A stretch of 64,000 nt of DNA from Auricularia sp. M13 (Eukaryota > Basidiomycota > Agaricomycetes > Auriculariales > Auriculariaceae), in the NCBI GenBank assembly GCA_037042915.1, contig CM073200.1, positions 3,468,832 to 3,532,831 on the forward strand, given 5' to 3'. The position numbers were made by a program, and so were the translations under genes. This document shows, one piece after another, positions 35,135-61,022 of the stretch; the first letter of the stretch is position 1, and every line of letters begins with the position of its first letter. The notes below the pieces were generated by a model. It was not told the DNA's origin. It searched no databases and was given only the letters and a program-made list of their open reading frames with translations.

Positions 35135-38100
35135 ATGCCCCTGCCGACGCCAGCGCCCTCGTCGCCCGGCGGCTACGAAAACGACGATGAGCAGCAGAAC
35201 GACGAGCAGGAGGTCATCATCGAGGCGCCCGAGAACACGGGCACCTATCCAGAATTCGGCGCGCTGTGTGCGCTGCTCGACAGACTGCAGAAGGAGCGCA
35301 GGCAGGAAATGCGCCGTACGCTGCTTCAGAAGTGGTTTGCTGTGAGCCTTCCTCCTGGGCCTGTTCCCCAGTGCTGAGCTCGTCGTGGTTGCAGTTGTGG
35401 CGCGACCGTGTCGGCCCGGACCTGTACCCCCTCCTGCGCCTGCTCTTGCCCCAGGCGCGTTGCACAGCTCCTGGTTGGCTGCATATTGAACTGAGCATTG
35501 GGATTCAGAAAGACCGAGAGCGCGCCGTGTACAATATCAAGGAGAAGACGCTCGCCAAAGCGTTCATCAAGGCGCTCGGACTCGACCCCAAGGCCCCGGA
35601 CTCCATGCGGCTTATGAACTGGAAGAAGCCCACAGACAAAGACGCGAGTGCTATATTCCTGCTATTGCCCTTCTTCCCTGCGTGTCCTTACACTCGTTAC
35701 AGAAGACGGCTGGCGATTTTCCGACGGTGCTGTGGGAAGTCGTTTCCAAGCGCTCGTCGGTCATGCGCGGCACTATGCGCGTCGACCAAGTCAACGCTTG
35801 CCTCGACGACCTCGCAGCATGTGCGGGGAAGCTGTGCGTTGTCTGACTACTCTGTAAATGCATACTCACAGTGCGTAGTGACAAGATTATGCACGCAGTT
35901 CGACGCATTAGCGACGCAACAACCCCATCCGAGCAGCGCTGGATTGTCCGTATTATTCTCAAAGGTCAGTATAACCTTTCGTTTCGGTCTTATTGCTAAT
36001 GTTGCACACAAGACCTCATCATTTCGGTCAAGGAGACTACTATCCTGTCGGTATTCCATCCGGACGCGCTGTCGTTGTTCAACACTTGCTCGGACCTGAA
36101 GCGTGTTGCGCATCAACTCTGGGACGAGAACTACCGCTTGAACGACCAGGCAAGTCGAAGTTCCATACCTCCCACCCACCGAGACTGAATGCTCGTTTCA
36201 GGACAAGAGCGTGCAACTGTTCCGCTGCTTCGCACCCATGCTCTGCAAGCGGCCGACCAAGAGCCTCGAGGAGACCGTCGCGCTCATGAAAGGCGCAAAA
36301 TTCGTCATCGAGGAGAAGCTCGATGGCGAACGCATCCAGGTGCACAAGCGGGGGAACGAATACCTTTACTACTCCAGGAAGGGCAAGGATTATACATACC
36401 TTTACGGCAAGACCGTCAGCTCGGAGAAGGCGAGCTTGACGCCGTACCTGCACAAGGCCTTCAGAGGCGACGTTCGCGAGTACGTGTTTCTGCTTTCCGG
36501 TCATGGTACTGAGGCTATATTGCTGACTGATGCAGTTGTATTTTGGACGGCGAGATGCTCGTGTGGGATCCTGTCAGCGAGAAGCTCCTGCCGTTCGGTC
36601 ATCTCAAGACTGCAGCGTTAGGTTCGTACTTAGTCTTCCTGGAACGTCGCGCTCACTGCCGTCGGGTCGTTTTCAGGTAACGCCAGAGAAGCCCTAAATC
36701 CTCGGCCGTGCTGTTAGTGGGATGCAAAGAGCGCGACACGGACTATATTAACCAATCTTGCAGTCAAGATATTTGACATCCTCTATGTCAACGGCAAATC
36801 GCTGCTGGACAAGAAGCTCTCGCAGCGAAAGAAACTCGCGCACGACATCATCAAGGAGAATAAGGGCCGCGTGGAGTTTTCGTTCCAGGAAGAAGGCTAT
36901 ACCGCCAAGGACATTCGCGATGCTCTGCAGAGGGTCATGGAGGAACGGTGGGCGTTTGACGCAAATTCCTTGGACCGTGCTGAGCCAGGATGATAGTGGA
37001 GAGGGATTGGTTATCAAGCACCCCGACTCTCAATACCAGTTGAACGGACGCGTGAGCGACTGGATCAAGGTGAAGCCTGAGTATATGGACGATATGGGCG
37101 AGACAGTCGATGTGCTCGTCGTCGGTGCGCCACCCAATCATCTTCACCAGTCATGGATCTTGATATTATTTCAAGGTGGAAACTACGGTTCTGGCAAGCG
37201 CGGCGGAGGCGTGTCGACGATGATCTGCGCCGTCATTGAAGACCGCAATCAGGATGAGGACGAGACTAAGTATGCATGTGGTTTCTTGCTATGGAGTTCG
37301 TCCTCATCGTTTCAGATATTCCACTTTCGTTCGTATTGGCTCTGGGTTCTCGTACAACGATTACCTGGCCATCCGTGCTAAGCCATGGAAACCATGGGAC
37401 AAGAAACGGCCGCCTTCCTGGTTGATCACCGCGCCCAACAGCCAGGACGACAAGGGCGATGTGTATCTTGAACCAGAAGAGTGCGTCTCGGACCGCTCAT
37501 CATTTATTTCGACTGACGATCGGGATAGTTCATTCGTCGTAAAGGTCAAGGCTGCAGAAATCACAAAGACAGGTAAATTCATTCTTTCGTGCCTCGGTCG
37601 CCGGTTGGCTGACGTTGTGTAGATCAGTATGGCCTGAAGCTGACGATGCGCTTCCCCCGCGCGGTGCGCATCCGCGACGATCTGGATTGGACGCAATGTA
37701 TGACCGCGTCTGGTCAGTCTATTGTTCGTGTATGTCGTTGGAACGTGGCTTATACTGGTCATACAGATATCCTCGAAATGACGGCGTCGACGACGAAGAA
37801 GAAGCGCGCGGCTGGAGAGGACGAAGAGTATGTAATTTCTTTTGTGTGTTGCCGAACGGTGCTGATAATTTCTGTCCGCAGAGGACCAAGAAAGAAACGC
37901 AAGACAGTGAAGAAGCCTGTGAGTTTTGCAATATACCTCGGTGACGGTCTTCTGACACCTTAGTCCCATAGACTGCGTTATCGCAGGCCTTCAAGGGCGC
38001 AGACACAACGGACATATTGGTCACCTCGGACATCTTTACCGGCATGAAGTTCCGTACGTGCGACGATGAACGCTCCCTTCATCGCGTCATAGCTTACGTC

Positions 38101-39582
38101 TTATCCAGACGTGCTCGATAACCCGCGCGTTGTGGATGAAAAGAAAACAATGGAAACTTTGTCAGTTATTACAATTCTGCGGTTCATTATTGTCTGCGAT
38201 TGACACAGAATGCAGAATTAAGCAGCACGGCGGAGCATTCTGCCAGAAACCACTCGCGAGGGAGGTCGCGACTGTGTTCAGAGTCTTCGGCGGGTCGGAC
38301 CAGAAGCCACGTGGGTACCTCCCTGTTGCCTGGCGGCGCACACGTACTGTACAGATCCTGACTCCGCAACTCTGTGCAGCGCTGAGAGTGGCCAACATCA
38401 TCAACGAGGACTCGTCAGATATCCTCCGGCCGAGCTATATCAACGACTGTGTAGAGCGCGGTGAACGACTGCCACTGAGCAAGAAGTTGTTCACGCTCTC
38501 TTGTAAACCGTGTTCTTGTGGCTGATGTTGCGTGCAGATATTTCTTCTACAGAGCGGGCGGCAAGTCTCGCACCGAAGAGGAAGAAGCGGAGTATCAACA
38601 AGACGACGAGGAAGGACCTGCAGCTGACGACGCGATGGAAGCGAGCACCAGCGCTGCGCTGCGCGATTCCGCGGATTCTGTCAAACGAGAAAGCGCGGAG
38701 CCCGAGCTGGATCCGTCGTTATCGCAGTACTCCGAGTGGGTCTCCGTGAGCGACGGCGAGAAGGCCCGGCAGACGAAACACACGAATGAGCCCGCAGACG
38801 AGTCGGAGACGGAAGACGAGTCCTCGTGGGAGGCGCCCGACGACGGCGAGCAGACGGATGAGTGGGAGATGCTGAGCTCCAGCAAACTCACGGAATCTGT
38901 GAATCTGGGCAATCGCGAGGCAAGCTCTGTCGTTGCATATGAGCCTTTGCCATCTGATCGTCCGTCAGGCGACGTTGGAAGGCGACGACGTCCAGTTTAC
39001 ACCGACCGTGAAACAGGCGGCTATTCTTCCTGTCGCGGAGAAGGTCACGGTCAAGATGGGCGAAGATGAGTCTGCCATGGAGTACGACCCCGATATCATC
39101 TTCAAACATTTGTACGTTTTAAGCTTCATGCTTCGTGCCACGAAGATTCACTGATTGCTTAATAGACGATTCTACCTCGATACACCTGCGAATGCACGGC
39201 GGAATGACATGGATGTCAACTCCGCCGTCGAAGCTCAGATCACAGAGGAGTGCGTTATTCCTCTGCTTCATTCTTTCACCTGGGCTCACTATGAACTGCT
39301 AGCATGGCCGAGATCGCAAAGTTAATTGAAGACAACGGCGGGAAGATAGTCGATCTGGCAGACCCGAAGTTGACCCATATCATCGTCGACAAACGCGACT
39401 ACTCGCGTCTGAGGGAGCTGAGGAAGCGGACGAACAAGTACGCCCGCCTGCCTAAACGGCCGGCTTATGGATTCTGATGACAGTCGCACAGGCCGAAGCA
39501 AAGACAACTGGTGCAATCTGACTTCATCAGAGTAGCCGTGGAAGCAGAAACACTCCCAGACGAGGATGGATTCCGACCTTGA
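35135..39582 (+). CDS. LIG4: DNA ligase IV (non-homologous end joining)
   Basis: Twenty-five exons, starting 35135-35341 and ending 39492-39582, close in frame as 1063 aa. The N-terminal DNA-binding domain includes FGALCALLDRLQKERRQ. The adenylation motif EEKLDGERIQVHKRG carries the catalytic Lys. GEGLVIKHPDSQYQLNGRVS and GNYGSGKRGG mark the later ligase motifs. Two BRCT units follow (DILVTSDIFTGMKF; EIAKLIEDNGGKIVDLADPK), with an acidic linker of about 130 residues between them, in the region that binds XRCC4/Lif1. Lig4 seals double-strand breaks in NHEJ. Three introns need GC donors: 35455-35508, 35644-35702 and 36150-36201. A 36-nt exon at 36677-36712 encodes NAREALNPRPC. Confidence 0.92.
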
Positions 39583-39788
39583 CCATGCCACCAACACATA
39601 GAACATTTATGCACACGCACCCGACTCCCTGTACATGTGTACCACTTGTTGTTGTAATAAGCTGCAATGTACGATAGTCATTTCATGCAACGGTTCTCCT
39701 ACTACTCCGAATGGCACGAATTAAAGCAAGCACGAGAAATCAATGTAATATTCACGTCGTCCACCCACCCCCGGGTACTAAGAAAGCT
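39583..39788. other. Convergent 3' region between LIG4 and THS1
   Basis: 206 bp between the two stop codons, AT-rich, presumably holding both polyadenylation regions. No other feature was seen. Confidence 0.5.
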
Positions 39789-42657
39789 CTAGTCAAAACG
39801 GTTCTCAAGTTTGCGCGTCTTTTTCAGCTGCACAAGCTTGGCCACCAGGTCGTCCAAGGGGATCGTGACGTCGGACCGCGTCTTGGAGCCGACGTCGTCG
39901 CGATTTCTCACGTTGACAGACCGTGAGCTACGCTCAGTGTCGCCGACAACTGCGAGGTAGACATGAGTAAGGAATTCCGATAAATCGTGCGCCACGTACC
40001 CAACATGAAGTTGTACTGCGCGATCTCGGCGTTGCGGATCTTCTTCTGCAATGTGTTCTCGCCGTTGTCGACGTCGACGAAGATGCCGTTCTCTTGCAAG
40101 ATCTGGCCGACCTCCGTCGCATATCCCCTCTACGAACGGGATGAGTATACGCCGATATTAAAACCGCTCAGACGCACGAATTCATTGCCGACGGGAATGA
40201 CGGCGACTTGGCGAGGAGACAGCCAGAATGGCCTATTCCGCGACACGAGTGAGTTACAGTTACAGAAGGCAATGACCAGCCCAGCCAGCACATACCATTT
40301 GCCCGCAAAGTGCTCCGTGATGATACCCATAAAGCGCTCCACGCTGCCCAGGATGGCACGGTGTATCATAACAGGGCGCGACGGCTCGCGGCCCTTCGAG
40401 TCGGCATCATGGTCCTCCTTGCTGCGGTACGACAGGTTGAAGCGCTGGGGGAGCTGGAAGTCGAGCTGGATCGTCGCGCACTGGAACGAGCGGCGCAGCG
40501 CGTCCTCGATGGTGATGTCGATCTTGGGCCCGTAGAACGCGCCGTCGCCCGCGTTGAGCGCCCACGTGCCGGGGAAGAAGCGGTCGAGCACGCGCGTCAG
40601 CTGCGCCTCCGCGTCGTCCCACGTCGCCACCTCGCCCAGGAAGTGCTCCGGCCGCGTCGAGAGCTCCAGCTTGAACGTGAACCCGAACAGGCCGTACACG
40701 CTCTGCAGGAAGTCGATCACGCCCGCGATCTCGTCTTCAATCTGTCGCGCGCGCGTCAGCGTGCGGTGATGCAGTAAGGACGATCGCTGACCTGCTCGGG
40801 CATGCAGAAGATGTGCGCATCGTCCTGCACGAAACGGCGCACGCGCGTGAGGCCGCTGAGCGCGCCGGACGCCTCGTTCCGGTGCAGGATGGCGAACTCG
40901 GCCATGCGCAGCGGCAGCTCCTTGTAGCTGCGGTCCTTGCTGTCGAAGATGACGCAGTGGCCGGGGCAGTTCATCGGCTTCATCGCCCATTGCTCCTTCT
41001 CGACGTCCAGGTTGAACATGTTCTCCTTGTAGTTCTGCCAGTGGCCCGACGTCTCCCACAGCTTCACGTTGAATATGTTGGGCGAGATAACTAGATAGTG
41101 TCAGGAAACTCCGTATATGACCGCGGCGCGCAACCACCATACCTTCCTGGTAGCCACGCTTCCAGTATTCGCTCTGCAGGCCCGGGTCAGAGGCAAAGTG
41201 AGACGGCGCGGAGGTGACATGCCCGAATGAATTCCACGAGGGTGTTGTATATCCGGGTGCCATTGGGAAGGAAGAAGCAGCTGCCTGGGCTGATATCGTT
41301 GAAGAAGAACAGTTCTTGTTCCTGCAGGGACATTCAGCCCAGCGACAGCGTCATTATCAAAGGGCTTCCGTACCCGTCCAATTTTACGGTGATCACGACG
41401 AGCAGCTTCGGCGAGGAACTCCTTGTATTCCGCGAGCTGCTTCGTGTCGGGGAAGGAGATGCCGTATATCCGCTGCAGCGAGTCGTTCGCTGCGTCGCCA
41501 AGGAAATACGAGGCAGAGTTCTATCGCAAGGGTGAGAATGGCTGCTACATCGAGGAAGTCATAAACCGTGCGTTACCTTCGTGACCATGAAGGCCTTGAT
41601 CTTTCCCGTGTGCGGGATGTGCGGGCCAACGCACAGGTCAATCATGGGACCGCAGCGGTAGACTGTCGTCGATGTGCCGTCGGGAACCTTCGTGTTGATG
41701 AAGTGAAGCTTGTACTTGTTGTACTGCCGATAACTGCGTCAGACAAGGAAGAGCGACTATGTGAGCGTGCATACTGCAAACATCTCCAAGAGGTCTTCCT
41801 TCTTCATGACGAGTCGTTCGAACCGCTGTTTTTCCTTGACGGCGTTCTTGGACAGCGTCTCGAGGGCGGGATAGTCGGCGGCTGTCACAGCTCTGCGGCA
41901 AGTCAGAAGGGGAAATTCATGGGGAAAAGACGACTTTCCCCTCCATCGCCATTTCGTAGTAGAAGCCTTCATCTAACGGAGGCCCGAGGCAGAGGTGGCA
42001 GCCGTAATGCTTCTCGCTGGCTTCGCCGAGGACATGGGCGGAAGAGTGCCAGAAGACGCGCTTTCCTGCGAGACTGTGAGCACAAGGACATGAGTTGATA
42101 ACGAGCGTGTCACCTTCTGGGTGTTCAAAGTCCAGGAGCTCGAGCTTGACCGACTTTTCCAGCGGGCGTTCGAGGTCCCAAAGCTCTCCGTCGACCTGGA
42201 ATGCAGCCAGTCAGAATTACGGTGCAAGGATGGTGGGAGGATACGCGCTTTGGCGATGACGACGCGCTCGGAGAGGCTCTTCGAAATCTCCTTTGCGACG
42301 TCCATGGGAGTCGTCTCCCAGCTCGTGCCTTTGCGGTGCGGGCCATCGGGCATTTCAATCGTGATCTCCTGGCGCGGCTGGGCTGCAGGGAGTGAGCATA
42401 TACACAATATGTATGGCCGCGCACCTTTCGCCCATTCCTCGTATTCAGCTTTGAGGCGATCGAACATCTTGATTCGATGGTCAAAGAATTCCGGCTTGGG
42501 CGAGAGCTACAGGGCTGCATGAGCATGCCAGCAGGGTCATCGTGGACGCGATGCGCACTTCGAGGCTGGCAGCAGCGCTGGGCGCGCCTTTGGACTTGGA
42601 CTTTTTGTCTGTGGCTGGCTGGGCCGGCTTTGGCTGCTGGGCTGGTGGTTGTGCCAT
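39789..42657 (-). CDS. THS1: Threonyl-tRNA synthetase, cytosolic type
   Basis: Fifteen minus-strand exons from 42559-42657 down to 39789-39949 encode about 719 aa. Order: TGS-like region ([20 protein letters not shown]), editing domain ([14 protein letters not shown], with [17 protein letters not shown]), class II core ([44 protein letters not shown], motif 2; [18 protein letters not shown], motif 3) and anticodon-binding domain ([20 protein letters not shown]). The enzyme charges tRNA-Thr and edits Ser-tRNA. Introns 42196-42248 (gcgcgt) and 41174-41222 (gcatgt) require GC donors. One junction (41893-41934) is off by a single base with any canonical signal, so the sequence or the model has one unexplained base there. 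The start is shared divergently with the methyltransferase at 42828. Confidence 0.9.
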
Positions 42658-42827
42658 TGCGAGGGAAGAGCAGTAACGCGCAAGGCTTAGGAGACGGGGC
42701 GGGCGTGCAGCTGGGAGGGATTTGACGTGGTGCAATCGGAGGAACAAAGGTGTCCAAGACCTTTGCATGCGACGTGCGAGTCACGAGAGACGGGCGTCTA
42801 AATTCCCAATCTAAGCACCGCTCATCG

Positions 42828-44133
42828 ATGTCTCTCAATCTCAATCTCAATCCTAGGATATCCTCCATCGCTCGCAATTTCTACGCCCTGCGCCTGCCTC
42901 AAGACAACGATTTCCCTCAAAATGGCCAAGAGCTGCAAAATACACTGATTCAGGATATCCTGGAAAGCGAGCTCTACCGTTCATACCCTCCTGCCGCCAA
43001 CTACCAGCGCGTCTTCTGGAAACGCGCAATAACTCGTCTAGAGTCATGCGATGACCTCGAGGTCTCTGACTCCCTGTGCGCCCTGCTCCCAGCCACATTT
43101 AACGCGCGTCCCAGGAAATCGACAGCAGAGTCTACGATGCCCTGCTAGCTTTGATGGCCTGTGACTCCTCGTATGTGCTTGCCCAGCCTTCCCTCAGCCT
43201 CCAAGTCAACAGCGAGCGCTGGACAGTTCTCCGCGCCCACACGTGCAGGGACCACCGCCTCCCTCCTTCCTCACGCACTTCTGGCGTCTGCCCGGCTCTG
43301 GCCAACTCGCAACGACGACCTTGCTCGAGTCCCGCATGACGGTCGAAGCGGGCACTACGGGACTGCATACCTGGGGCGCGAGTCTCGCGCTGTGTCAGCA
43401 TCTACAGGCGCATCCAGAAACCGTGCAAGGGAAACGCGTGCTTGAGTTGGGATGCGGCGTCGGGCTGCTAGGGGCCGTCATAGCCCGCCTCGGTGCCCAG
43501 AGGACGATCCTCACCGACTGCAGCCAAGAAGTCCTGGAACGGTGCCGGGACAACATACATCGAGCAACAAGTGCGCAGCTCGTTTGTTCTGTCGTCTGTC
43601 TTTCCCCACACACCAGCAGACGTCCCGGAAACCGCGGCCGTGCACTTCGCGCAACTGGACTGGTTCGACGCGCTGCACGACACCTACTCGTTATCATCCC
43701 GAATTCGCGAATGGGATCCGCACACCGTCCTAGGGGCAGACATTGTACGCTCAAGCTGCCCATCGAGCATGCACGGCTCACCCCCTCCCTCCCTCAGGTA
43801 TACGATCCAGAGATAATCCCGCCACTCGCCCAAACGCTGCGACTCATGCTAACCTCGAGCACTCGTATCAAGTCTGTTCTGCTCGCCCTAACAGTCCGAC
43901 GACAAGAGACGTTCGACGCTTTCGTGTCCGCCCTCGGTGCGCATGTCCATGCAAAACGCAATTGATTGCTCAACCAGTTGTTGGCTTTTGCAGAACCAGT
44001 CGGCTTGCGAGCGCTCGTGCAGGAGCTGCAGGTCGACCCCGCCGGCGATTTTCTCTGTACGGCCAGCGAAACGGACAAGAGCTCACGCGTCATGCTGCTA
44101 GACATCACATCCTCCAAAGGGCACGAGCAATAA
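42828..44133 (+). CDS. EFM3: EFM3/FAM86-like protein-lysine methyltransferase
   Basis: Six exons (42828-43061, 43115-43170, 43227-43570, 43620-43744, 43798-43936, 43994-44133) close as 345 aa. The N-terminal FAM86 helix region has FYALRLPQDNDFP. The Rossmann methyltransferase core is clear: LLESRMTVEAGTTGLHTWGA, motif I VLELGCGVGLLGAVIARLGA (binds S-adenosylmethionine), then VLGADIVYDPEIIPPLAQTL, the post-strand motif of the METTL21/FAM86 class. In yeast and human this family methylates a lysine of elongation factor 2, giving the gene a role in translation; that assignment is by family. An upstream in-frame ATG at 42750 is possible but less likely. The 3' end faces APL4, 162 bp away. Confidence 0.82.
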
Positions 44134-44295
44134 GTAACATTGATCACATGTACCCCGCGATTCCTCAGCCCTCGCGGAGCATCTCAGTCTGTCGTGTCAC
44201 GTCGAGTACTTACTGTATCCGATACAAGCATTGCATTGGGACTACCGCTGATGTTACTTTACAATCAACACAATCACGGCCGTCGCGGTCTAAGG

Positions 44296-47200
44296 CTATA
44301 GCGTGCCACTCGTCAAGCCCTGCGGGAACCCGGAAAAGTCCACCTGCTCCATCACGGGCTGAGCCCCGAGCTGGTACTGCAGTCGTAACCGCAGCCGGAT
44401 GTGCGCCTACATCGCAGCAATCAGCAAGAGCAAAAGCGGGGGACTTCGAGGCTGGTGAACTGACTCCTACGGGCGCCTTGATGCGCAGCTGTTGCGTCTC
44501 GACGGCGCCGGGGAGCACGCTGGAGCTCGAAATGGGCAGCATCTGCAGCTGCATCGTCTAAAAGAGAAGCATAACCGCGTCAACACGAGCTGCGACAGAT
44601 GAATAACTAGATGAAAGGAAGGAAACACACTTTCGGAACGGCAGCCTGGAAGTTGAGCCCGGTGATCGTCTCGTTCGACGTCGACGCGAACCGCGCAATC
44701 GCCGCGACCATGCCAGGATGCTGCGGCGACACCTGCGGCGTGAGCGTCACCTTGAGCCCGTTCTTGTCGTACGCCGTGTAGCCGGGCGGTGCGGCCGGCT
44801 GTGACGGGGGCGGGGAGGACGCCTGCAGGAAGGACAGCCCGGAAGACGCTGCAACCGGTGCTGGTGCTGGCGCCGCTGCCGGGGCGCTCGGTGTTGAGTC
44901 GAACAAGCCAAGAATGTCGTTTACCGCCTGCTGGCGCGACGGCACTGCAGCTTGGGCGGCGGCAGTGGGACCCGACGCAGCTCCTCCACCGCCGCCGAAG
45001 ATTTCCGCCAACAGGTTCTGAGCGTTTGCTTGTGGTACGGCTGGCGAAACCGGATCATCTGTGAGGTCCAGCAGGGACTGCGACAACAGTTTCAGATAGA
45101 TTGCACCAAGTCGTGGGTACTCGAATACGCACGTCCTTGTCTGCTCTTGTGGAGCCGACGGGCTTGTTCTCGACGACTGTGTGTCCCCAGCATTAGGTTT
45201 ATATCGGCAAGCCTAGACGGCTGAGTAACTCACCAGTGCCCAGCACAGTTGCCTTCAACTCCGGCGGCGGCATCCTCTCCAGCACGCCTTCGACAACTTC
45301 CTTTGCCTGGCTAAGCAATGCCGCAAACTCCACAGCGCGCTGCTGAATCTCAAGCTCGGGCGTGGTCGAGAACTTGGAGAGCATCATCAAAATGCGCTGC
45401 CGCGACGGCGCCGTCGTCGCCGGCCGCGCGTCGATCTTGGTGAGCGCGGTGAGCACAAACTGGCGCGTGAGCGCGTTGACGTAGGGCGAGTTGAGCACAA
45501 GGTCGAACAGGTCCAAGATATCCTTGTCCGAGACCGGCCGGGGGCTCTCCTCGTGCACGATGCCGCTCTCCATCAATATTTCGCTGTACTCCCCAATGAG
45601 CCACACGGCGGCCAGCGTGAGCGACTCCTGCGAGACGTCCGCCTGGAGCGCAGTATAGAGCTTGCTCGTCGTGTACGCCTGCAGCTCGGGCGTGTGCGCG
45701 ACGAGGCGGATGAAGCCCGACAGGATCTCCTCGCGCACGTAGTTGCCCGCGAGCGTGAGCGCGCGCAGCACCGTGTCGATGTGCCACCGCTTGTTCGGCG
45801 CAAAGCGCTCCGCCGCGAGCGAGATCTGCGTCGTGATCCCGAGCTTGAACTCGTTGTCCGCAACCTCCAGGAAGGCCAGCAACTCGCGGATGAGGATGCG
45901 GACGTTCTGCTCGTTGATGAGCGCGTAGGAAAGCTCGAGCGCACGCCGCCGGATGGAGATGTCGCCGTCGCGCAGGCAGTCAAGGATAATGTTGCGGTGC
46001 CGCTGCACGGCGTTCGTGTCGATTGATACCACCTTGTTAAGGGTGTTCAAAGCAACGTAGCTGACCATACAGTGAGTTTGCAGCGCGGTCGGGATCGTGA
46101 TAGTACTCACCGGATGTTGTTGTCCCTGTTGCTCAAGAATTTACCAAGAATGTTGATTGCCATGACGCGCAGACCGCTATCTGCTTCGATATCGAGGACA
46201 GTAAGAACAGTCTCGTATAAAATCGAGTTGCCAACGTTCTTGCTGGAGTCCGTGTTTGTTGCAACCTAAACAAGATGGTTCATGGGCTTCTATGGATAGA
46301 GGCTCGGTAGCTTACCTGAGCGAGAATGTCGTTCATTATTTCGCTGGCCTTGGGGTCGCCTTTACCAGTCAAGCGCAGGAGGCGCAAAATCTTGACCTGC
46401 AAGAACGGATCCGTGATACCAGAGACATCGTGTTCTGGGCTGTAACCTGTCGTAACGAGGGACTTAAGGTGGCGGACGAGTAGAGGAACGGCCTGAAACA
46501 AGTTAGATATCAACACACGTAGGCATTGCTGTACGCGTACATTGCGGAACTCGTCGCAACAGGCAGCATCTGCTTCGCACATCTCGATTATAAGCGTTAT
46601 GCTCGCAAGGAGGACGCCATGATTCTGGTTGGACAGCAGGATCTTCGCCTTAGGGGTGATATGATCAATGAGGTCTGGCACTTTGCGAACGATCCGCAAG
46701 GCGCACAACGCAGCCTGGAAGGAGCGTTAGAACACATTAGAAGACGAAGACGAAGAGATATTGCCAACGCGCCTTCTTGCGAATATATGAGTTACTGGAG
46801 CCCAACAGTTTCTCAACTTCGTTACACAGATCTCGCGACATTTCCTCGGACGCGATATTTGCAAACGCGCACAGGCCGAGTCCGACGGCGTACATGTTGG
46901 AGTGGTTCATGTCGCTGCGAGGCGGCCGGGAGCGTCAGCGCACTCGGCGCGTCGATCTAGCTAAGGCGTACTTTTTGAGCGAATTTGTGACAAGCGTCAG
47001 GACCTCCTGCTTTTCGTCGAGCAGGAGCATAATCCCAAGATATCCCAGGCGCTTGTCTGCGAAGCGGGGGCTGGCAACGAGCTTGAGGCATTCGATCTGG
47101 CCAAAGTGTGCTGGGTAGCCGAGCATGTGGATGTAGAGCAGCTTTGCGACATTGTGGTAGCGCGTGTACGAGTCCTCCTCCTTGAACGCCGTCCGTATTG

Positions 47201-47401
47201 CCGCCGACTCTTTCTGGATCAGGGCGCGCTCGTCGGCGATGGTCTGCAGCACCGGTCAGCGCCAGCGCGCGTGTCAGCCAGCGCAGGACTCGCCTTGCAC
47301 GCGCGGATGGCCTTAATGAGCGCTGCAACGACCCTGGCATGTCAGCCCCGCTGCAGTGGGCTGCACTGTGCGTGCTCGCCTTTGAGGTTATGGTACACCA
47401 T
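44296..47401 (-). CDS. APL4: AP-1 adaptor complex gamma subunit (gamma-adaptin)
   Basis: Twelve minus-strand exons (47380-47401, 47294-47322, 46972-47243, 46773-46914, 46541-46714, 46316-46492, 46111-46265, 45234-46060, 45133-45176, 44631-45077, 44471-44557, 44296-44406) close as 828 aa. The start [20 protein letters not shown] is the hallmark N-terminus. The trunk continues with [20 protein letters not shown] and [20 protein letters not shown], then a Gly/Ala/Pro hinge with SLLDLTDD, and a C-terminal ear ([39 protein letters not shown]). It is part of the clathrin AP-1 complex sorting cargo at the trans-Golgi and endosomes. Three introns need GC donors (47323-47379, 47244-47293, 46715-46772). 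Confidence 0.93.
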
Positions 47402-47432
47402 CGCGCGCGAGAGGCCGTCAGAGTCCAAGTCG
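47402..47432. promoter_or_regulatory. 31-bp divergent start region shared by APL4 and the helicase-nuclease gene
   Basis: The APL4 ATG (47401, minus) and the first candidate helicase ATG (47433, plus) are 31 bp apart; using the helicase ATG at 47472 the gap is 70 bp. Either way the 5' leaders must overlap or reach into the opposite gene. No TATA box is visible in the gap. Confidence 0.6.
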
Positions 47433-49778
47433 ATGATGGCCGGCAACGTCCGTTCGTCCTGCTCGCGTCGCATGCCCAGCCATGTCGCGCTCTGCAGCCG
47501 CCTCGCTGCGAGACATGGCCTGCGGCTCCCCATTGCCCGCCTCTGCCTGCGCTCGCTGATTTTCGCCCGTAATTTCATCGCCAGCCCGGAGCAGCAGGCC
47601 GTCGTGCAGCATTGCCAGTCGCACAATGTCATGGTCTCTGCGCGTCCAGGCTCAGGCAAAACCGCCACTGCCGAGGCTCTCGTGCGAGAATACCCGGACG
47701 TGCCCATTGCCGTCGTCACGTACTCCAAGCGGCTCCAGCTCGCCACGCAGCAGCGCCTGGCCGACTACCCGCTCGCGGAGGCCTTTACGTTCCACGGTCT
47801 CGCGTCGCGTCTCTTCGGCGAAATTGTTTACAACGACACTGTTCTGCGCCATATCAGGCGCGGAAAGGCGATTCCAGTATGGAACATGCCCGATTACCAT
47901 TATGTCGTTCTGGACGAACTGCAAGACATGACTTCAGACCTTTACTGGCTTTCCTGTGCTTTCATATCTGCCTTGACGCGCCGCAGCGGGACTCCCCCGC
48001 ACCTTCTCATTCTCGGCGACCCGCACCAGGCTATCTACGAATTTCGCGGTGCTGACGCCAGGTATCTGAGTCTGGCCTCTACAACCTTTTCGGCTCTGTC
48101 GCCGCATCCGTGGGAGTCGTTGAAACTGGCTCAGAGCTTCCGCCTCTCCCGCCAGACCTCTGACTTTGTTAACGACGTCTTTCTCGCTGGTGAACAATAT
48201 ATTCAAGGCTCCCATGATGGTCCCAGGCCGATCTATGTGCACACCGACCTTTCTGTAACAAGTACTCTCATAGGTCCGTCGTGCGCCCATCCTACCCATA
48301 CTCCGGGAATGTAACGCTCAATAATAGACCTATTTTTACCGCTTATTCGAACCTATGGTCCGGAAAACACTGCCATACTCGCACCGTTTGTGCGCAACAA
48401 CCCATTTCTACCCCAGCTCACCAACACCCTCTCCCAACGATACTCTATTCCCGTCGCGGTCAGCACTTCAGATGACATCTCGCTCGACGCGGACGTGCTA
48501 AACGGCAAGCTGGCCGTGTCGACGTACCACCAATTTAAAGGCTCGGAGCGCGACTGCGTGATCGTCTACGGCGCCGACGCGTCCTACTTCAACTTCATGG
48601 GCCGCGATCTACCCGACGACCGCTGTCCAAACGCGACCTTCGTCGCGCTCACCCGCGCGCGCAAGCAGCTCGTCGTGCTGCAGAGCCACAAGTTCCCCGC
48701 CATGCCATTCGTCGACTGGGACGCCATGACGCAGCACGCGGACTACGTCGACCTCGCCGACACCTCGCCGCGCGCGCAGTACGAGCCCGGCCGCCCGCTG
48801 CAGCTCGGCCTGCTGCTCCCCAAGGACGTCTTTGCGAGCGAGATTGCGCGGCACGTGCGCGACGAGGAGCTGGAGGAGCTCATGCGCGCCAACGTCAACA
48901 TCGTCGAGCTCGTCGGGCCCACCCCGTACAACGACTTTGAGGCCGTGCCCGACAAGGTGTGCACCGACCCCGTCAAGAACCACTACGAGGCCGTGAGCGA
49001 CCTGAACGGGCTCGTAGTGACGGCCGCGCTGGAGTGGTCGTTGCAGGGCAAGCTCGATTCCTTTGGCTATGGAAGAAGAAAGATATCTAGCGCGTCGCCG
49101 CCGCCCGACGTACCGCTGGATGCGCGTCAGCGCGCTGTCTGGCTGATGAAGGAGGCCGTGCAGTACGAGGCGCGGGTGTCAAGGTACCGCTCGCGTCTCG
49201 TCCAAATGAAGGACCACTCGTTCGACTGGTTTGCCGTGGACGACGGCCGCCTGCTCGAGCTCGCCGTCAAGCGTTTGCGCGCGGAGGTCCTCGGTGATGC
49301 GGTCACGACGGACGCGCTCAACTTTGAGCATCCCATGTCATTCCGGGTCGAAATTGACGGCGAAGAGACCAAGCTCGCCGGCCGCGCGGACCTGCTCTTT
49401 TCAGAGACCAAGGGTGGCGAGGTGCACACGACTATATGGGAGGTCAAGTTCGTCTCCGCCCTGTCACAGGAGCACGTGGCGCAAGCAGTCGCCTACGCCT
49501 ATCTATGGTGGTCGACATCCCGCCCGAAATCGCGTTCGAAACGCAATGCGCCGATCGTGCATTTCCCGCGCATTGTGCTGTTTAACGTGCGTACCGGCGC
49601 TAAGTGGGAGATACAGACCACCGTCGACCGAGCGCGGTCACTCATTGAGGGTATTTTGCGCGCCAAATATACTTCCAAAGGCGAGAGTAGTCTTGAGGAG
49701 TTCATCACGACATGCATGCGTGTTGTGAAGGCGGTCGAGTCTCGTCAGACCTCCGACGAGACCTTGTCTGCTACATAA
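47433..49778 (+). CDS. UvrD-like SF1 helicase fused to a PD-(D/E)XK nuclease, probably mitochondrial
   Basis: Two exons, to 48273 and 48328-49778, join in phase 1; 763 aa from the first ATG, 750 aa from 47472. The N-terminus is Arg-rich with no acidic residues (CSRLAARHGLRLPIARLCLR), like a mitochondrial presequence. Helicase motifs in order: ASPEQQAVV (Q motif), VSARPGSGKT (Walker A), YVVLDELQDM (motif II), LLILGDPHQAIYEFRG (III), LAQSFRLSR (IV), VSTYHQFKGSERDCVIVYGA (V), VALTRARKQL (VI). The C-terminal domain has AGRADLLFSETKGG, then TTIWEVKFV, the D...ExK metal site of PD-(D/E)XK nucleases, then AQAVAYAYLWW. It probably processes DNA ends or flaps. Its exact role and location are inferred. 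Confidence 0.85.
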
Positions 49779-49945
49779 AATTGCACAAATTATTTCTCCA
49801 ACAATTGCAGGACCAATAATAGGATCCTGAACTGCACTGCAAAAGCAAGCAAACAGACCTGTCCGTCATCATAGAAGTTTCGGTATGCAAAAAGGGGACG
49901 ACAGTGGAAGAAAAATGATGTATATCCAGGAACAACAAAAGAACT

Positions 49946-50024: not shown

Positions 50025-50045
50025 TCAAAAACTGCTTTTAACAGC

Positions 50046-52096: not shown

Positions 52097-52244
52097 GGTT
52101 GTCCTCGTCTTGCAATCGTCGCGTGACCAAGGAGCATGCTCACGTGGCAGACGCCATTACAAGCAGAACACAAGTAATACAACGCGCGCAGTTGATCGCA
52201 TAGTGTTACATTGTCGTCGTCAAGTCCAGTCACTTCTGACGCTC

Positions 52245-54451: not shown

Positions 54452-55521
54452 ATGAGGACGGCGCAGGAGATCAAGACCCAGCTTGCCGCGGAGCTCGGTT
54501 CCAACGGCCTCCCTTACTGGCGCACGCTTTCCGAGTATCTCACCGCAAAGATATCCCGGCAGGAGTTTGAGGACATAGTCAAGCAGTTTCTGAACGTGCC
54601 GCGCCTTGGTCAGTGGCTGGACCACCGTCGTGTCGGCCTCAATTTCATCGCTTACTCTCATCAGTACAATTACACAACGCGCTTCTCATATCTATCATCA
54701 CTGCAGCTGGGTCGAATGCCGCCCCGAGTGCAGCACCGCAAGTTGCGCACGCCCAGCGTAAACGACGCCGACTTCGCGCGTACCAGGGTGACGAAGCCGA
54801 AGCCACCGCTTCGCGCTCGGCTAGACTTAAGCAATGGGCGTTGGCTGCGGGGAAGCGCGAGCGCGAGAGAATACGCAACCTGGAGTATGGCGAATCCATC
54901 ACCGATCCACACGCGCGGGATGAAGTCCGCCAGGAGCGCGCCGTGCGCCGCGTTCCGGAGGCAGCAGATGGCAGACGTAAGCACATAATCCTACGCTATC
55001 TGGTGCACGTCTGAGCGTTGTCGTTAGCTTCTGAGAACTTCCACCATGTCCGCCTGGCGTCCACAACGCGCGGGATCACACCACAGCATTTGCACGAGCG
55101 TCTCTCATTAGCTGCCGCACAGCACGGACTCTCGCCGCACGTCCCCAAGTCTGCGTCTGTGTTGCTCAACCTCGCCGTAGAGGCCATGCTCAAGAACCTT
55201 GTTACGCAAGCTCTCGTGCAGACGTCGTCCTCGCGCGCTATCACCTCCATTAAGCCCGTTATGCCGCCAAGCAATTCTCTTGGGGTCTCAGCGTTCGACA
55301 CCGTGCTCACCATTACGCCGTCCATCATCCCTGATCAGAGTGCTGCTGCCGTGCGACTCGCGCAGGGCGAGCCCGATTATACGGACGAGCGCGATAGAAC
55401 GACGTGGACGCTTGGACGCGGTAAGGTCAACCCGGCGCCGCCGCGCGAGGACCCGCGCTGGCAGTTGCTCTCCATTTTGCGGGAACGTACTGGCGTTCGT
55501 GAGGTTTTGGATACGCTTTGA
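54452..55521 (+). CDS. HFI1: SAGA complex subunit Hfi1/Ada1
   Basis: Three exons (54452-54608, 54665-54976, 55028-55521) close as 320 aa. The first 50 residues, TAQEIKTQLAAELGSNGLPY followed by WRTLSEYLTAKISRQEFEDI, are the SAGA-Tad1 motif of Hfi1/Ada1, with QLHNALLISIITAA completing the helix. A basic stretch with RKRRRLRAY precedes a C-terminal histone-fold-like part (HLHERLSLAAAQHGLSPHVP; VLLNLAVEAMLKNLVTQA). Ada1 pairs with Spt7/Taf12-type histone folds and holds the SAGA coactivator together in the nucleus. It is about as long as other basidiomycete versions would be expected to be, but shorter than the 488-aa yeast protein. It ends 74 bp from the convergent RPC4 gene. Confidence 0.85.
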
Positions 55522-55595
55522 ACACTGCTCTGCGCTGTAACCCATTGTATTCCTTCTGTAATGTTGGCACATGTAATCTTATCCGCGGATAGACA

Positions 55596-57168
55596 TCAAC
55601 TGGCGTCTATTACTTGCGCCGTCCCCTTCACAGCTGCGACATCGTCTTCCTGATCGAGCTCGTCGAGGAGTCCGTCTAGGTCTGGTGAAACGACATATCG
55701 CTGTCGAATTTCGCCGAGCACGACCATTGCTTTCTTCTCCCGGTGCAGATGCACAGCATGCTGCAGATAAGAGGCGGGCGTCGCAGAGTTAACCTGTTGG
55801 CAGTTTGTTCAGCTCGCAACGAGGTGAATGGAACTCTCCCAGCCTCACATTGAGAAGGATATTTTCGCCCAATCGCATCTTTATAGAGCCGTCGTCGTAT
55901 ACCTCCAGCTGGCCGATAAGGCCATCAAGTGGAACCTTCTTTTCTTGCTTCTTCGCGCCCTCGTCGTCGTCCGCCGCTGCGAGCGGTTTGATTTCATCCG
56001 CGAACGACACGTGGCGCGAAGGGCCCGCGTCGGCCTTTTCTTTGCCTTTCGCTTTGTCCGACTTGATTGCAGGTGCGGGGGGTTTTGCGGAAGGTCCGGG
56101 CGCATCGTCTTTGACGTCTACATCCATCGGGTCGGCGGTTGCAGCAGTCGCGGTAGGCACAAAGGTCGGAAAAGGCTGTGGAAATTGGAATACAAATATT
56201 TCTTGACTCAGGGAGGTGATCTGTTGCAGACTGAGAGAAGTATTGACAGCGAGAGAGTATTTGCTTACCTCCATGTCGTCCTGTTTGCCTGTGAGCGCGC
56301 GTACTAATTCCTGGAGCTCGTCAGAGTCGTCCAAGTCGGCCAAGACAAATTCCGTGGGATCTTGAGTCTGAGCCGAGGCAGAGGGTCCAGCTGCCATGTC
56401 AAATAACTTGGCTGTATGTATCAGGTCAGTTGCTGTTAACCAGTAGACCATACAAAGCGGCTTACCGTCGGGATCCTCAATCTTCACGCGCGGTTTCGTC
56501 TTGCGCTCCTTGCGTAGCGTTTCAGGCGCCATATAGTCCATTCGCCGCACGTCGGAAAGGTCGACGATTTCGACGCCAGCATCTGGATCGGAATACTGCT
56601 CGGCCTCGTCCTCTTCCTCGTCTTTGGGACGCAGCTCCTTTTTCATAGAGAACGGTAAGGGCGGAGGGGCGCCAGATAGCGACAACATCGAGCTCGACGC
56701 AGACGCGACGGGCGCGAAGACCGTGCGCGGTGCCGCCCGCCGACCGGTGACGAGCGCTGGGCCCATCGCGAACGGTCCGCTGGCCACCATCGTCTCTTCG
56801 GGTCGTGGGTTACTAGGACGGTCGCCGCCGCCAGGCCCGCCGCGTCCGCGACCACGCCCTCGTCCGCGTCCCGGCGGCGGCTTGCTGCTGGTGCTTGCTC
56901 CCGCATTAGCAGGCTCCTACAGTAGAATTGCCTTGTCAGACACGCGTCTATGGCGGATATGCTGACATGCCTGTTTCACTTCAGCTCTAGATTGCAGTCA
57001 AACGCGTGCGAGCTGCAGGAAAGCGGAGCCTGCGCACTCTGCTGGCTTTTTCCTCGCCGCGAACGTCGGGACGAACTTGAGCTTCGCGGTGCCGCCCTTG
57101 GTCGTCGCATCGTCTGGTCTCTTGGCTTGGTTGCCGATTGCACGCTCCTGGCCTGGTGGCTGGCTCAT
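55596..57168 (-). CDS. RPC53: RNA polymerase III subunit RPC4 (RPC53)
   Basis: Five minus-strand exons: about 57004-57168, 56466-56916, 56269-56411, 55849-56220 and 55596-55793. The N-terminus MSQPPGQERAIGNQAKRPDD leads to KLKFVPTFAARKK, an Arg/Gly-rich tract (PPPGRGRGRGRGRGGPGG), acidic patches, and the C-terminal RPC4 domain: VPLDGLIGQLEVYDDGSIKM, RLGENILLNV, then SATPASYLQHAVHLH and MVVLGEIRQRYVVSPDLDGL. RPC4 pairs with RPC5 in the TFIIF-like arm of Pol III, helping termination and reinitiation. The end of exon 1 is open: a GT donor at 57003 gives 442 aa, a GC donor at 57042 gives 429 aa. Confidence 0.88.
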
Positions 57169-57259
57169 CCGCTAATTCCAGGAGTCACGGTAAGGAGTCG
57201 CGGCTCACAAACTCCGACTCTTGATCTCTTACTGCTCTCTCCGGTGCCACATCCTGTCG
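57169..57259. promoter_or_regulatory. 91-bp divergent start region shared by RPC53 and the F-box gene
   Basis: The RPC53 ATG at 57168 (minus) and the F-box ATG at 57260 (plus) are separated by 91 bp, so both promoters must fit here or overlap the genes. No TATA box was seen. Confidence 0.6.
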
Positions 57260-58795
57260 ATGGTCGTCTTACTCGAACTACCCGACGACGTGTGGTCATG
57301 CGTGTTCGACTGCATGACAGTGACACAACTCGTGGTAGCTTCGCATGTCTGCAAGCGTCTGCGGCTCTGTGCCCACGCCCACGAGACATTTTGGAGCGTT
57401 GCGACCATCTCCAAAAACCTTCATCCCGCCTCGCTTGAATTCTTCATGAAACAGCTGCTGCAGTCGAATATCGGACGTCGGCCCATCTCCGTTACTGTTT
57501 TGCCTCAGAAGGGCTGGTCAAGCTACCCCGATCAACTGCCGTTCATGCGGACCATAATCATTCCCGCTATCGGCGCCAGCCTATCCCATTTGGTAGCCCT
57601 GCACATTGAAGTGCCCCACATGCTCTCGGAATGCATGGTCAACATGCTTCGCCAACCTGCACCGGCGTTACGTTCGTTCACCGTCACCAACTGGCACTAC
57701 CGCGAAGATATCACCTCCATTATAGATACCATCGCCATTCCTAGTGACATCTTTGCGATGCATGCCCCACAGCTGGTTGTGCTTAGTATTGGCGATGGCA
57801 TCACATTCCCCGACCATCCGCTGCCTGCGTTCCGCGCCGTCGAACTGGTCAAGCTTCATCTTGGATGCGACCTGCCCAACCTGATCGGCCTGGAAAGACT
57901 CCTACAGTGGTTCCCTAATTTGCTCCATTTTGATATGCGGGCGCTGGAAGTGGAAGGGAAGACCTGGAGTCGTCTCCCACCGCAACTATTCGGACGTTTG
58001 AGCGACTTGATATCGATCGGACTACATGCCTCTTCGCTTGCCAACCTCCAACGGCTTGGCCTGTCTGGGCAGTTCCTTATCCCCATACGTCACGTTCGGG
58101 TGATGACAAGGTCCTTGGGTTCGCGTATCGGCGGCAGCATCGGGATGGACAGCGCGCTCAGGCAGTGCCTCATACCTCGAACATCCGCGGAGATATCCTG
58201 CTGGCTGAGGTACATAGGGGGATTATCCGAATCTTCTGAATACTTTGTCGCGGGCGCTCCCATGGCGTTCGTGTCGGAAGATGTCTATCCCATCTTGCGC
58301 GAGTTCGACGCGCCGGCGGACTACCCCGAGCATGCCGGCGTGCCCATATGGCAGACGTTCGCCACGACTGTTAGGCTTGCCGCGCTGTCTATGGATGTGG
58401 AACTCTGGCAATCATTCCGCCAGCATACAGACGCGCTGACTTCACTCGAAATCCTGCTTATCGAATTGAAATCGCAGCTTCCTAGGCAGCGTGATGCAGC
58501 TGGACAGGGACTTGTTGTCTCCTGCCCGCGCCTGAACACAGTCATCCTCCAGAGCCGCTTTCTGGGCGCTCAGCGTGCCATCGTGACCTGCCGCGGCGTA
58601 GATGCCTTCCTTTGTGCGTCGCTGTCTGTGGACGACTGGGCCTCCGTCGAGGTCGTCCTTCTCGACGTCAGGCTCTATGGTTCCGCGACTAGCGAAGGCA
58701 CTCGGATCGCTCGCGTTTCCGAATCCTCGAGGCATGAATGCGCGAAGCGCAGTGCCCGGGTTGCGACGCTACTTCGCTACTCGGAGATGATATGA
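57260..58795 (+). CDS. F-box domain protein
   Basis: One exon, 511 aa. The start is chosen so the F-box lies at the N-terminus: MVVLLELPDDVWSCVFDCMT, then VTQLVVASHVCKRLRLCAHA, the LP..V...IF pattern that binds Skp1. The rest has no clear repeat, but shows irregular Leu-rich stretches (FPNLLHFDMRALEVEGKTWS) that could form a curved recognition surface. Such proteins are highly expanded in agaricomycetes and choose substrates for SCF ubiquitin ligases. Targets are unknown. An upstream in-frame ATG at 57221 would put 13 residues before the box. Confidence 0.8.
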   Translation: MVVLLELPDDVWSCVFDCMTVTQLVVASHVCKRLRLCAHAHETFWSVATISKNLHPASLEFFMKQLLQSNIGRRPISVTVLPQKGWSSYPDQLPFMRTIIIPAIGASLSHLVALHIEVPHMLSECMVNMLRQPAPALRSFTVTNWHYREDITSIIDTIAIPSDIFAMHAPQLVVLSIGDGITFPDHPLPAFRAVELVKLHLGCDLPNLIGLERLLQWFPNLLHFDMRALEVEGKTWSRLPPQLFGRLSDLISIGLHASSLANLQRLGLSGQFLIPIRHVRVMTRSLGSRIGGSIGMDSALRQCLIPRTSAEISCWLRYIGGLSESSEYFVAGAPMAFVSEDVYPILREFDAPADYPEHAGVPIWQTFATTVRLAALSMDVELWQSFRQHTDALTSLEILLIELKSQLPRQRDAAGQGLVVSCPRLNTVILQSRFLGAQRAIVTCRGVDAFLCASLSVDDWASVEVVLLDVRLYGSATSEGTRIARVSESSRHECAKRSARVATLLRYSEMI

Positions 58796-59191
58796 TGGCT
58801 TGTCCTCTGTCTGCCGAATTGTAGCCCATCTAGGATGCTGCATTGGTGATGGCCTGCTCTTCTTCCTGTGTGCCTTGGGCAATGCGCCTTCGTCCCTTCC
58901 CCTTGATAATCTACATTGTATTATTTCGCTGATCTGTACTCATTGAATACTTCTGGGACGCATACGACATCATTGTGATTGAAGATATCCATTTGGGCTC
59001 TGAAAAGACTACACCTTCACCATCGGTCGATCTGCTGATATGAAAGCATTTCCACTTGCGCTGGAACCAGGCAATGTTGGTTGGCGGGGGAGAGAAGATG
59101 TCTCGACGGGTAGTCGACGCGGCGTCGGCGCTGGCGGACGTCCGCGGTCTCGGTCAATGCTGACGCGCAAATAAGTTCTAGATAAATTATT
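58796..59191. other. Intergenic region after the F-box gene
   Basis: AT-richer DNA holding the 3' ends of the convergent F-box and DUF6533 genes. No gene or repeat was recognised. Confidence 0.45.
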
Positions 59192-61022
59192 CTAGAACCT
59201 CCCTTCATCGCCACCTAGTATACAAGCCATGGCATCTTGAGGTCCATTACACAACATGTGTGCCGCCGCTCGCCAGAGCCTGTTCGCGGTAGTCGCCCAC
59301 AGCGAGGTCTCGCAGTGGAACCTCTTGCTGCTGTTGCCGCGCTCGCGCTCGTTGTTCCATTTCGGCTTCCAGGCCTCCACCAATCTCCGTGAGAAACGTT
59401 CTGCGCATTGTATCAGTAGTGGGTCCGTGAAACCGGGCCGTGCGACGCACGAAACGAGTTCAGACGGTTTGCTGAGGAAAGATATTCGGGACCTCATCGA
59501 TTGCACTTGCTGGGACGAGCCCGAGCGGCCAGTCACCGCGCGGAGGTTGAGGATGAGGCGACAGGTAGATAGGACAGTAATGCTGCCCGTTGAATTAGGA
59601 GGTCAACGTCTTCTGAATTGGCGAGACAACGCACGCGGACGAGAATCTGTGTCGAGACCGTTTAACAAGCCATACCACTTGGACATGTTAAAAAAAGCGT
59701 ACCCAGCATTTATATCTTGTAATCCGACCTGAGCGTGTAGTGTGAGGATCTCGTGAATCACGTGTGCGAGAAACGGGTTACCGGAGCGAACTGCGGATGC
59801 GAAACATGTCAATACGGACTCAAAGCCTCGTCAGGGGACTCACAATGAACATAAAGATGTTGAGGCAGTATGACAATGACATGAGCCTGCGAGGGGTAAA
59901 TGTATGCATCGCACGAGGAGGCGGCCACTTACCCGAAGTAAATAAGGCCGTCGCGAAGTATCACTTGGACGATTGGCATGTCCTTGTGCTCCTTCATGTA
60001 TTCAAGTGATTTGAACAGCGTGCATCCGAACACCATGCAGTCGTAAATAAAAGGGGCCGTCCTGAGGTTGGTCAGCGAAAGATTGGAAGTGTTCAGGCGC
60101 ACAGCAACTGACCAGGTAACTATGCCTTGCACGCGACGAGGGCTGCCTGGTATGCAGCCGAAGCCCTTCGGCAGCAGTGTGATGCGCTCGTCGAAAGCAG
60201 TCCAGATGAGCACACCAGCCTCAATGACAATGGCTGGTATGAACACTAGAAGAATGAGCTTCGAGCGGCGGTACAAACTGGGCGAGGTCAGCCTCGTGCG
60301 CAGACAATGAGTTGGGAAATACGTGCGCATATGTCCGTAGCAGAAAGATGATGTGCGCAATGATGACTAGCGCAATGACAAAGGCGGTGGGCGCTACAGC
60401 AAACTTGTTGCATCTGTGGCGAGGGTGAGAGCGGGGGAAAGCTTTCCAGCGAGATCAACTAACTCCTATAGCCATGTGGACGATCAGCTAGGATAGCACT
60501 GCGGGCCCCTGAAAATCGTACCTCTGGTTCCCATGTGGTTTGGAACATCGCTGGAGGGGAGTGAACGGTGAGGAAGAGCATAAGCTTGCAGCACTGACTG
60601 TACGTGGCGTTGAGATACATAAGAATTGGCAGGTAGCGCAGCTGAGGGCGCGCGGGAATGAGCAGATGTTATGTGCGCGGGAACAACAGCATACCAGGAC
60701 CCAGAGCCCCGTGAACGAGTTGCGCTGGCGCTGCCATATTCGTTCGACCTCCATGTCGAGGCAGATAACTGCCGTCTTCCTGGTCAGTAACTAATCGTGC
60801 AGCCTTGCCAAACGACTGGGTCCACTCACGCCAGTCCCATAAGAGCACGGCGTACGTAGAGACGAAGTATAACTTCCATGCCTGCCTGGGAGAAGTCGCG
60901 CGTTGTTAGCAGTCAAGATAGGGTAGGTTTGTTACTGCAGCCTGTTTTCCGGCGCTCAGCACTCACAGCTCAGCGAAGTGGCGGGCCGTCTCGGGGGAAT
61001 AATGCCCAGTGTCGTTGGCCAT
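59192..61022 (-). CDS. Seven-helix-type membrane protein, DUF6533 family
   Basis: Minus-strand exons begin 60967-61022, 60832-60885, 60695-60779 and 60604-60641. The start MANDTGHYSPETARHFAELQ leads into AWKLYFVSTYAVLLWDW and then CLDMEVERIWQRQRN, which is the DUF6533 signature (a Trp-Asp helix end followed by E.E.IW). Later hydrophobic helices include VAPTAFVIALVIIAHIIFLL with RTYALYRRSK, LILLVFIPAIVIEAGVLIW, TAPFIYDCMVFGCTLFKSL and YCLNIFMFIFAPV, then RLILNLRA near the end. These proteins are abundant in agaricomycetes; function is unknown, though receptor-like topology is often suggested. GC donors are required at 60831 (gcgtga) and 60326 (gcacgt). The exon around 60420-60600 and the last 350 bp are not settled. 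Confidence 0.75.

Follow-up and report, generated by a model that had tools for sequence, protein, structure and literature searches.

Why should several neighbouring genes of the basidiomycete Auricularia sp. M13 appear to be spliced through so many GC donors? The question is raised by a 64,000-nucleotide stretch of contig CM073200.1 (positions 3,468,832 to 3,532,831 of GenBank assembly GCA_037042915.1; G000:C8:3468832-3532831), hereafter the window, in a genome of 52.1 Mb, 14 contigs and 57% G+C whose introns are short and dense. An earlier note on this DNA had drawn ten introns that begin with GC rather than GT, in the genes for DNA ligase IV (LIG4), cytoplasmic threonyl-tRNA synthetase (THS1) and AP-1 gamma adaptin (APL4), and in a gene encoding a DUF6533 domain. 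We find that LIG4, THS1 and APL4 very probably carry nine GC-AG introns in their predicted models. These are likely to be ordinary U2-type introns, and the dense block that they form is likely an extreme draw from a rate of a few percent combined with variation from gene to gene, with no separate mechanism behind it.

Introns were modelled with a two-strand gene finder that combines codon-position content, matrices for donor, acceptor and branch site, and an intron-length model. It was trained on the window together with 224 kb of the same genome, for three rounds with GT donors only and then for three rounds with GT and GC donors, GT introns being the sole source of the donor matrices, and its output comprises ~640 introns with a median length of 54 nt. 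With GC given a prior of 0.04, nine of the ten previously drawn introns were recovered with identical ends, and seven further GC introns were proposed in the window, one of which is accepted here (38920-38968). The remaining six of these 16 candidates (3736, 11273, 13862, 29416, 43157 and 47535) are not accepted. The ten accepted introns are listed in the table together with the genes that carry them.

Accepted GC-AG introns, the genes that contain them and one GT-AG intron that replaces an earlier GC-AG assignment. Donors are written as exon/intron. Likelihood drop is the loss when a site is forbidden, sites being taken in turn, in an equal-prior run; the hold-out column tells whether the GC intron was called in the hold-out run.
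Feature	Position	Strand	Donor	Length (nt)	Phase	Likelihood drop	Hold-out	Details
LIG4 (DNA ligase IV)	35135..39582	+						25 exons, 1066 aa; GC-AG in 4 of 24 introns; phmmer to DNA ligase 4, E 3.8e-130
GC-AG intron, LIG4	35455..35508	+	cag/GCGCGT	54	0		no	read-through stays in frame
GC-AG intron, LIG4	35644..35702	+	gac/GCGAGT	59	0	5.62	yes
GC-AG intron, LIG4	36150..36201	+	cag/GCAAGT	52	0	3.48	yes
GC-AG intron, LIG4	38920..38968	+	gag/GCAAGC	49	0	4.0	yes	overlooked in the earlier note
THS1 (cytoplasmic threonyl-tRNA synthetase)	39789..42657	-						14 introns, 2 GC-AG; phmmer to cytoplasmic threonine-tRNA ligase, E 8.9e-170
GC-AG intron, THS1	41174..41222	-	cgg/GCATGT	49	0	0.99	yes
GC-AG intron, THS1	42196..42248	-	aaa/GCGCGT	53	0	5.48	yes
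APL4 (AP-1 gamma adaptin)	44296..47473	-						11 introns, 3 GC-AG; phmmer of first 618 residues to AP-1 gamma-1, E 3.9e-209
GC-AG intron, APL4	46715..46772	-	aag/GCGCGT	58	0	3.65	yes
GC-AG intron, APL4	47244..47293	-	aag/GCGAGT	50	0	5.76	yes
GC-AG intron, APL4	47323..47379	-	aag/GCGAGC	57	1		no	donor less secure; 29-nt exon downstream
GC-AG intron, DUF6533 gene	60278..60326	-	tgc/GCACGT	49		0.14	yes
GT-AG intron, DUF6533 gene	60769..60829	-	GTGAGT					donor at 60829, acceptor 60769; gene model and Pfam

Continuity of the encoded proteins, or a domain score, backs seven of the ten junctions. In LIG4, the alignment to DNA ligase 4 runs ungapped through the junctions of 35455-35508 (residue 89, LLLPQ/KDRERAVYNIKE) and 35644-35702 (residue 134) and crosses that of 36150-36201 (residue 252) with a gap of two residues, while 38920-38968 lies beyond the aligned region. 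The THS1 junction of 41174-41222 (residue 332, VEFIR/SEYWKRG) is likewise ungapped in the alignment to the cytoplasmic enzyme, and the intron 42196-42248 yields a TGS domain of 49.6 bits compared with 31.1 bits for the GT alternative. Alignments to AP-1 gamma are ungapped across 46715-46772 (residue 179) and 47244-47293 (residue 41, AIRACK/TIADER) of APL4; at 47323-47379 (residue 31) the alignment begins only three residues ahead of the junction, so that the homology is marginal. For 38920 and 60278 the backing is that of the gene model. The weakest of the accepted set are 60278 and 47323: the small likelihood drop of the former is accompanied by stops on read-through and by a frame-preserving GT alternative at 60259-60322, and for the latter both equal-prior runs, described below, prefer a CA donor with the identical acceptor.

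It might be argued that the gene models are wrong and that nearby GT donors are the true sites. When the gene finder is restricted to GT, all four genes retain a complete frame, and close single alternatives that preserve the frame exist for both THS1 introns, for 60278 and for 38920. The earlier claims that a nearby GT choice leads to frameshift or stop, and that LIG4 closes over 25 exons and APL4 over 12 only with GC introns, are therefore not borne out, even though those exon counts do match our model. The argument holds in one case. The proposed GC intron 60780-60831 (gcgtga) of the DUF6533 gene lowers the Pfam score of that domain to 24.1 bits from the 32.1 bits obtained with the GT intron 60769-60829, and we have therefore replaced it. 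Elsewhere, the GT-only frames depend on weak donors and add or remove conserved residues of the LIG4, THS1 and APL4 proteins. A Pfam comparison of eight proteins, made on N-terminal or partial stretches with the GT-only DUF6533 protein left out, gives lower GT-only scores for TGS (as above), for DNA_ligase_A_N at the LIG4 N terminus (100.5 versus 133.5 bits) and for Adaptin_N (461.5 versus 504 bits), with tRNA-synt_2b unchanged (76.2 versus 76.3). Over all sequence, the total score is 8404.0 with GC allowed but only 8284.6 with GT alone. We consider it very unlikely that the set as a whole results from misplaced donors.

Would any non-GT dinucleotide have done as well? With equal priors of 0.002, 0.005 and 0.01, over 644-654 introns, GC was called 12, 14 and 16 times, whereas the best of 14 decoy dinucleotides reached at most 3, 6 and 8. 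For the hold-out run, the gene finder was re-trained for four rounds with GT donors only on sequence outside the window and then given the same prior for each of the 15 non-GT donors; this run is not fully clean, as its starting parameters had seen the window and the background and start-codon tables were retained. It called eight of the ten accepted introns, as well as the non-accepted 47535 (likelihood drop 1.19) and 11 decoy-donor introns within the window. Intron 35455-35508 is present in the model with GT and GC donors and absent from both equal-prior runs, the hold-out included. Likelihood drops above 3 log units were found for seven GC sites, six of them in the window, and for two decoy sites (a TC, with the highest value of all at 5.83, and a CT).

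Errors of assembly or base calling that turned GT into GC are the least plausible account of these sites. Nothing was found in their favour. They would require a mistake in about one fifth of the donors in the block genes with the conserved protein on either side left intact, and an exonic AG is more frequent before GC donors than before GT donors. Specifically, AG precedes the cut in 6 of the 10 GC introns and in 124 of 610 GT introns (p 0.008), or in 9 of 15 when five extra GC introns from elsewhere are included (p 0.001), and agreement with the U1 consensus at positions other than +2 averages 5.5 matches in the ten and 4.2 in GT introns (p 7e-4), figures that partly recycle features rewarded by the gene finder. 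All ten have G at +5 and, by eye, a CTNA near the 3′ end, and their lengths of 49-59 nt lie around the genome median given above.

Compensation of this kind, by exonic AG and U1 pairing, is known for U2-type GC-AG introns. The major spliceosome would remove the GC-AG introns of LIG4, THS1 and APL4 in the usual manner: the C at +2 would cost one pair with U1, and pairing at the exonic AG, the +5 G and a normal CTNA branch site might make up for the loss. U12-type introns are recognized by an ATATCC-type donor and a CCTTAAC branch motif (PMC3033335, in the passages cited). Inspection by eye shows no resemblance to ATATCC in any of the ten donors; the intron at 35644 does contain TCCTTAC towards its end, similar to the U12 branch motif, but its donor is GCGAGT.

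The donors were also said to depart, as gcgcgt and gcgagc, from the usual gcaagt, with the suggestion that the lineage may tolerate weak GC donors; this does not agree with the donor grammar of this genome. In the matrix for GT introns, +3 is G (0.49) or A (0.34), +4 is C (0.46) or A (0.32), +5 is G (0.89) and +6 is T (0.54) or C (0.34); the commonest donors among the 610 GT introns are GTGCGT (84), GTGAGT (48), GTGCGC (46) and GTACGT (44), and GTAAGT occurs only 12 times. Neither gcgcgt, which equals the commonest donor with T changed to C, nor gcgagc is unusual here. We also note that C exceeds A at +4 and that a search of the genome for the METTL16 family (PF05971) gave no match, though genes split among exons can escape such a search. 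Yeasts that lack METTL16 show a changed +4 base, there from A to U and not to C (PMC10581693, passages cited).

A variant U1 carrying G opposite +2 would pair with the C of these donors, and U1 genes were sought in the genome as well. No match to a U1 gene was obtained with Rfam RF00003 at E 0.001 or E 10, runs in which prokaryotic controls were silent in one and below the cut-off in 9 of 14 in the other. A 13-base pattern for the U1 5′ end, ATACTTRCCTGGC, occurs at six places in the genome, without an evident U1 gene among them. By eye, two (L029 and L030) are GT donors on the opposite strand, two (L032 and L034) are the same donor with GC, of which L034 is not an intron in the gene model, and another (L031) resembles retroelement coding sequence. 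At L032 the donor, cag/GCAAGTAT, matches the U1 consensus everywhere except +2 and opens a candidate GC-AG intron (1506-1553, 48 nt, likelihood drop 2.0, read-through in frame) in a gene that we take to encode a KEX2-like protease. Three strong matches to U6 snRNA were found (C7:1592441-1592542, C8:3024473-3024578 and C8:3098609-3098714), and one of them (L043) has an ACAGAGA box. A separate site, G000:C12:673989-674550, carries one pattern three times with identical letters and exact 271-base spacing, which suggests a tandem repeat.

How dense, then, is the block? Called with the three equal priors, GC introns number 6, 7 and 7 among 53 in the block, compared with 6 of 591, 7 of 595 and 9 of 601 in the rest (Fisher p 4e-5 to 1.5e-4), and on this point the earlier note was right: GC-AG introns are several and locally dense. 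Expected counts, summed over all parses, are 9.75 of 53.9 introns for the block (34997-47480), or 10.2 of 54.1 after re-training outside the window. The remainder of the window has 2.5 of 124, fewer than the decoy AG (3.9); five 40-kb blocks together have 17.5 of 452, with decoys averaging 2.8 and the highest being CA at 8.75 and TC at 8.74; and two further blocks, of 20 kb each, have 1.6 of 38, again fewer than a decoy (CG, 2.7). The sample is limited in that five of its seven blocks lie on contig C1 and one, S6, has no predicted gene. Four adaptin paralogues, used as a control for gene class, give 1.45 of 31. Loci L001-L008 lean to GT because they were retrieved by a GT pattern. On the grid tried, the GC fraction of highest likelihood is 0.18 for the block and 0.045 for the sequence outside it. 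The top four of 38 sliding 12.5-kb windows (7.0, 5.8, 4.2 and 2.8 expected GC introns) are those that overlap the block, and the best of the other 34 reaches 2.7. A local excess of GC introns is real in these data.

Supported GC introns also occur elsewhere in the genome. An adaptin paralogue contains a well-supported one (L039 338-386, aag/GCGCGT, likelihood drop 6.5), and a pectate-lyase-like gene another (S2 27319, likelihood drop 4.9). Because decoys surpass GC in the rest of the window and in the two 20-kb blocks, the base rate is uncertain; in our own judgement it is roughly 2-4% outside the block, by a noisy method. The expectation that GC-AG introns make up about one percent agrees with the fungal mean of 1.009% (PMC7072748), although this genome may exceed it. 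The genome would employ GC donors at a few percent, equal to or somewhat above the figure for curated polypores, which is discussed below. One 20-kb region (L035-L036, G000:C2:2500001-2520000) has no predicted gene and is perhaps repeat-rich.

Several of these results weigh against a plain draw from such a rate by ordinary introns. To the intact GT-only frames, the partly circular pairing tests and the decoys that outnumber GC must be added that, when fitted at 4.5%, the block falls 6.2 log units below its own best at 18%, and that the probability of at least 9 GC introns in 54 under a uniform rate is 6e-7 at 1.85%, 3e-5 at 3.0% and 2e-4 at 3.9%. If 649 introns in 288 kb are scaled to 52 Mb, there are ~2,200 sets of 54 introns, among which a rate of 3-4% would produce only ~0.07-0.5 such blocks by chance, and pure chance is therefore strained. 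The block was also selected after the fact, for standing out. We nevertheless regard an extreme draw, widened by gene-to-gene variation, as the likely explanation.

Alternatively, GT might have been converted to GC regionally, through a local mutational or gene-conversion bias from T to C over 12 kb. An excess common to three successive genes, interrupted by one small gene, would be expected of such a bias, as would two overlapping windows at 7.0 and 5.8 when none of the 34 clear of the block exceeds 2.7; the scarcity of such blocks under chance and the GC content at third codon positions (0.750 in the four block genes, 0.706 in the remainder of the window, 0.689 in the sample) point the same way. 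(That small gene lies between THS1 and APL4 and has a candidate GC intron at 43157-43212, gatg/GCCTGT, which the equal-prior runs pass over.) However, block, remaining window and sample agree in the G+C content of their GT introns (0.507, 0.507 and 0.512) and in the ratio of C to T at +6 (16:23, 38:61 and 156:248), and intron G+C is lowest, among the four block genes, in LIG4 (0.478) despite its four GC introns. Because intron G+C and +6 C should both rise and show no shift, we reject regional T-to-C drift as the main cause and consider such a bias improbable. It is equally doubtful that the 12 kb from LIG4 through THS1 and the small gene to APL4 form a hotspot in which conversion of GT to GC has run several-fold above the genome rate, chiefly at phase-0 introns, with donors eroding by region and not gene by gene.

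Selection acting on individual genes is another unlikely possibility, perhaps slightly more so. GC donors might be kept for regulated or slow splicing or to allow intron retention, roles that the passages cited report for individual animal genes (PMC7242645). The accepted GC introns of the block do favour phase 0 (8 of 9, compared with 15 of 44 GT introns in its four genes, p 0.007, with 43157, also phase 0, excluded), and 35455-35508 could be retained in frame. Some of the phase excess may arise because exonic AG is commonest at phase 0 in any case (74 of 224, versus 29 of 185 and 14 of 159 at the other phases), yet three of the eight phase-0 GC introns lack AG. In-frame read-through is seen only at 35455, the length of 47323-47379 being likewise a multiple of three, and the curated genes with non-canonical sites in Ganoderma lingzhi show no functional enrichment (PMC11590231, in the part cited). 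An extreme draw from ordinary GC-AG introns remains our preferred explanation.

The kind of intron described here is already known, and the clustering is mildly surprising. As in other U2-type GC-AG introns, a GC donor is combined with an AG acceptor, the length of a GT intron, a G at +5 and an enriched exonic AG; relative to the fungal average of ~1.0%, the share is probably ~2-4% here and ~18% in one 12-kb block. According to the published passages cited, GC-AG accounts for 1.85% in G. lingzhi (1706 sites, with 194 genes holding at least two non-canonical pairs; PMC11590231) and 1.72% in Coriolopsis trogii (PMC13395996). These polypores are wood-decay mushrooms in which GC-AG lies above the fungal mean, and some G. 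lingzhi genes contain two or three; their annotations differ in being curated with transcriptome data, whereas ours are predicted models, and the passages describe no run of adjacent genes. Because curated polypore genomes already give 1.7-1.9%, we do not propose a new kind of splicing.

In Ganoderma MYB genes, again as given in the passages cited, GC-AG introns occur in 10 of 75, and four pairs share their place in two species (PMC7407476), but they are scattered through one family, and not in neighbouring genes as here. The algae Micromonas pusilla and Aureococcus reach 22-40% GC-AG introns (PMC3033335); they resemble this fungus in combining a GC-rich genome with abundant GC donors, but theirs are genome-wide, whereas here the abundance is local with a few percent elsewhere. 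In mammals, GT-to-GC changes number 298 versus 40 in reverse (PMC2490688). Judged by titles and the openings of abstracts, with few subscription papers covered, we found no literature that deals with GC-AG introns clustered in runs over neighbouring genes.

Should a local hotspot of GC donors prove real, it could serve as a natural test of whether drift, mutation bias or selection spreads weak donors. More immediately, gene finders that accept only GT donors will harm conserved genes in such genomes, since the frame remains intact while the protein is altered, as is seen for LIG4, THS1 and gamma adaptin.

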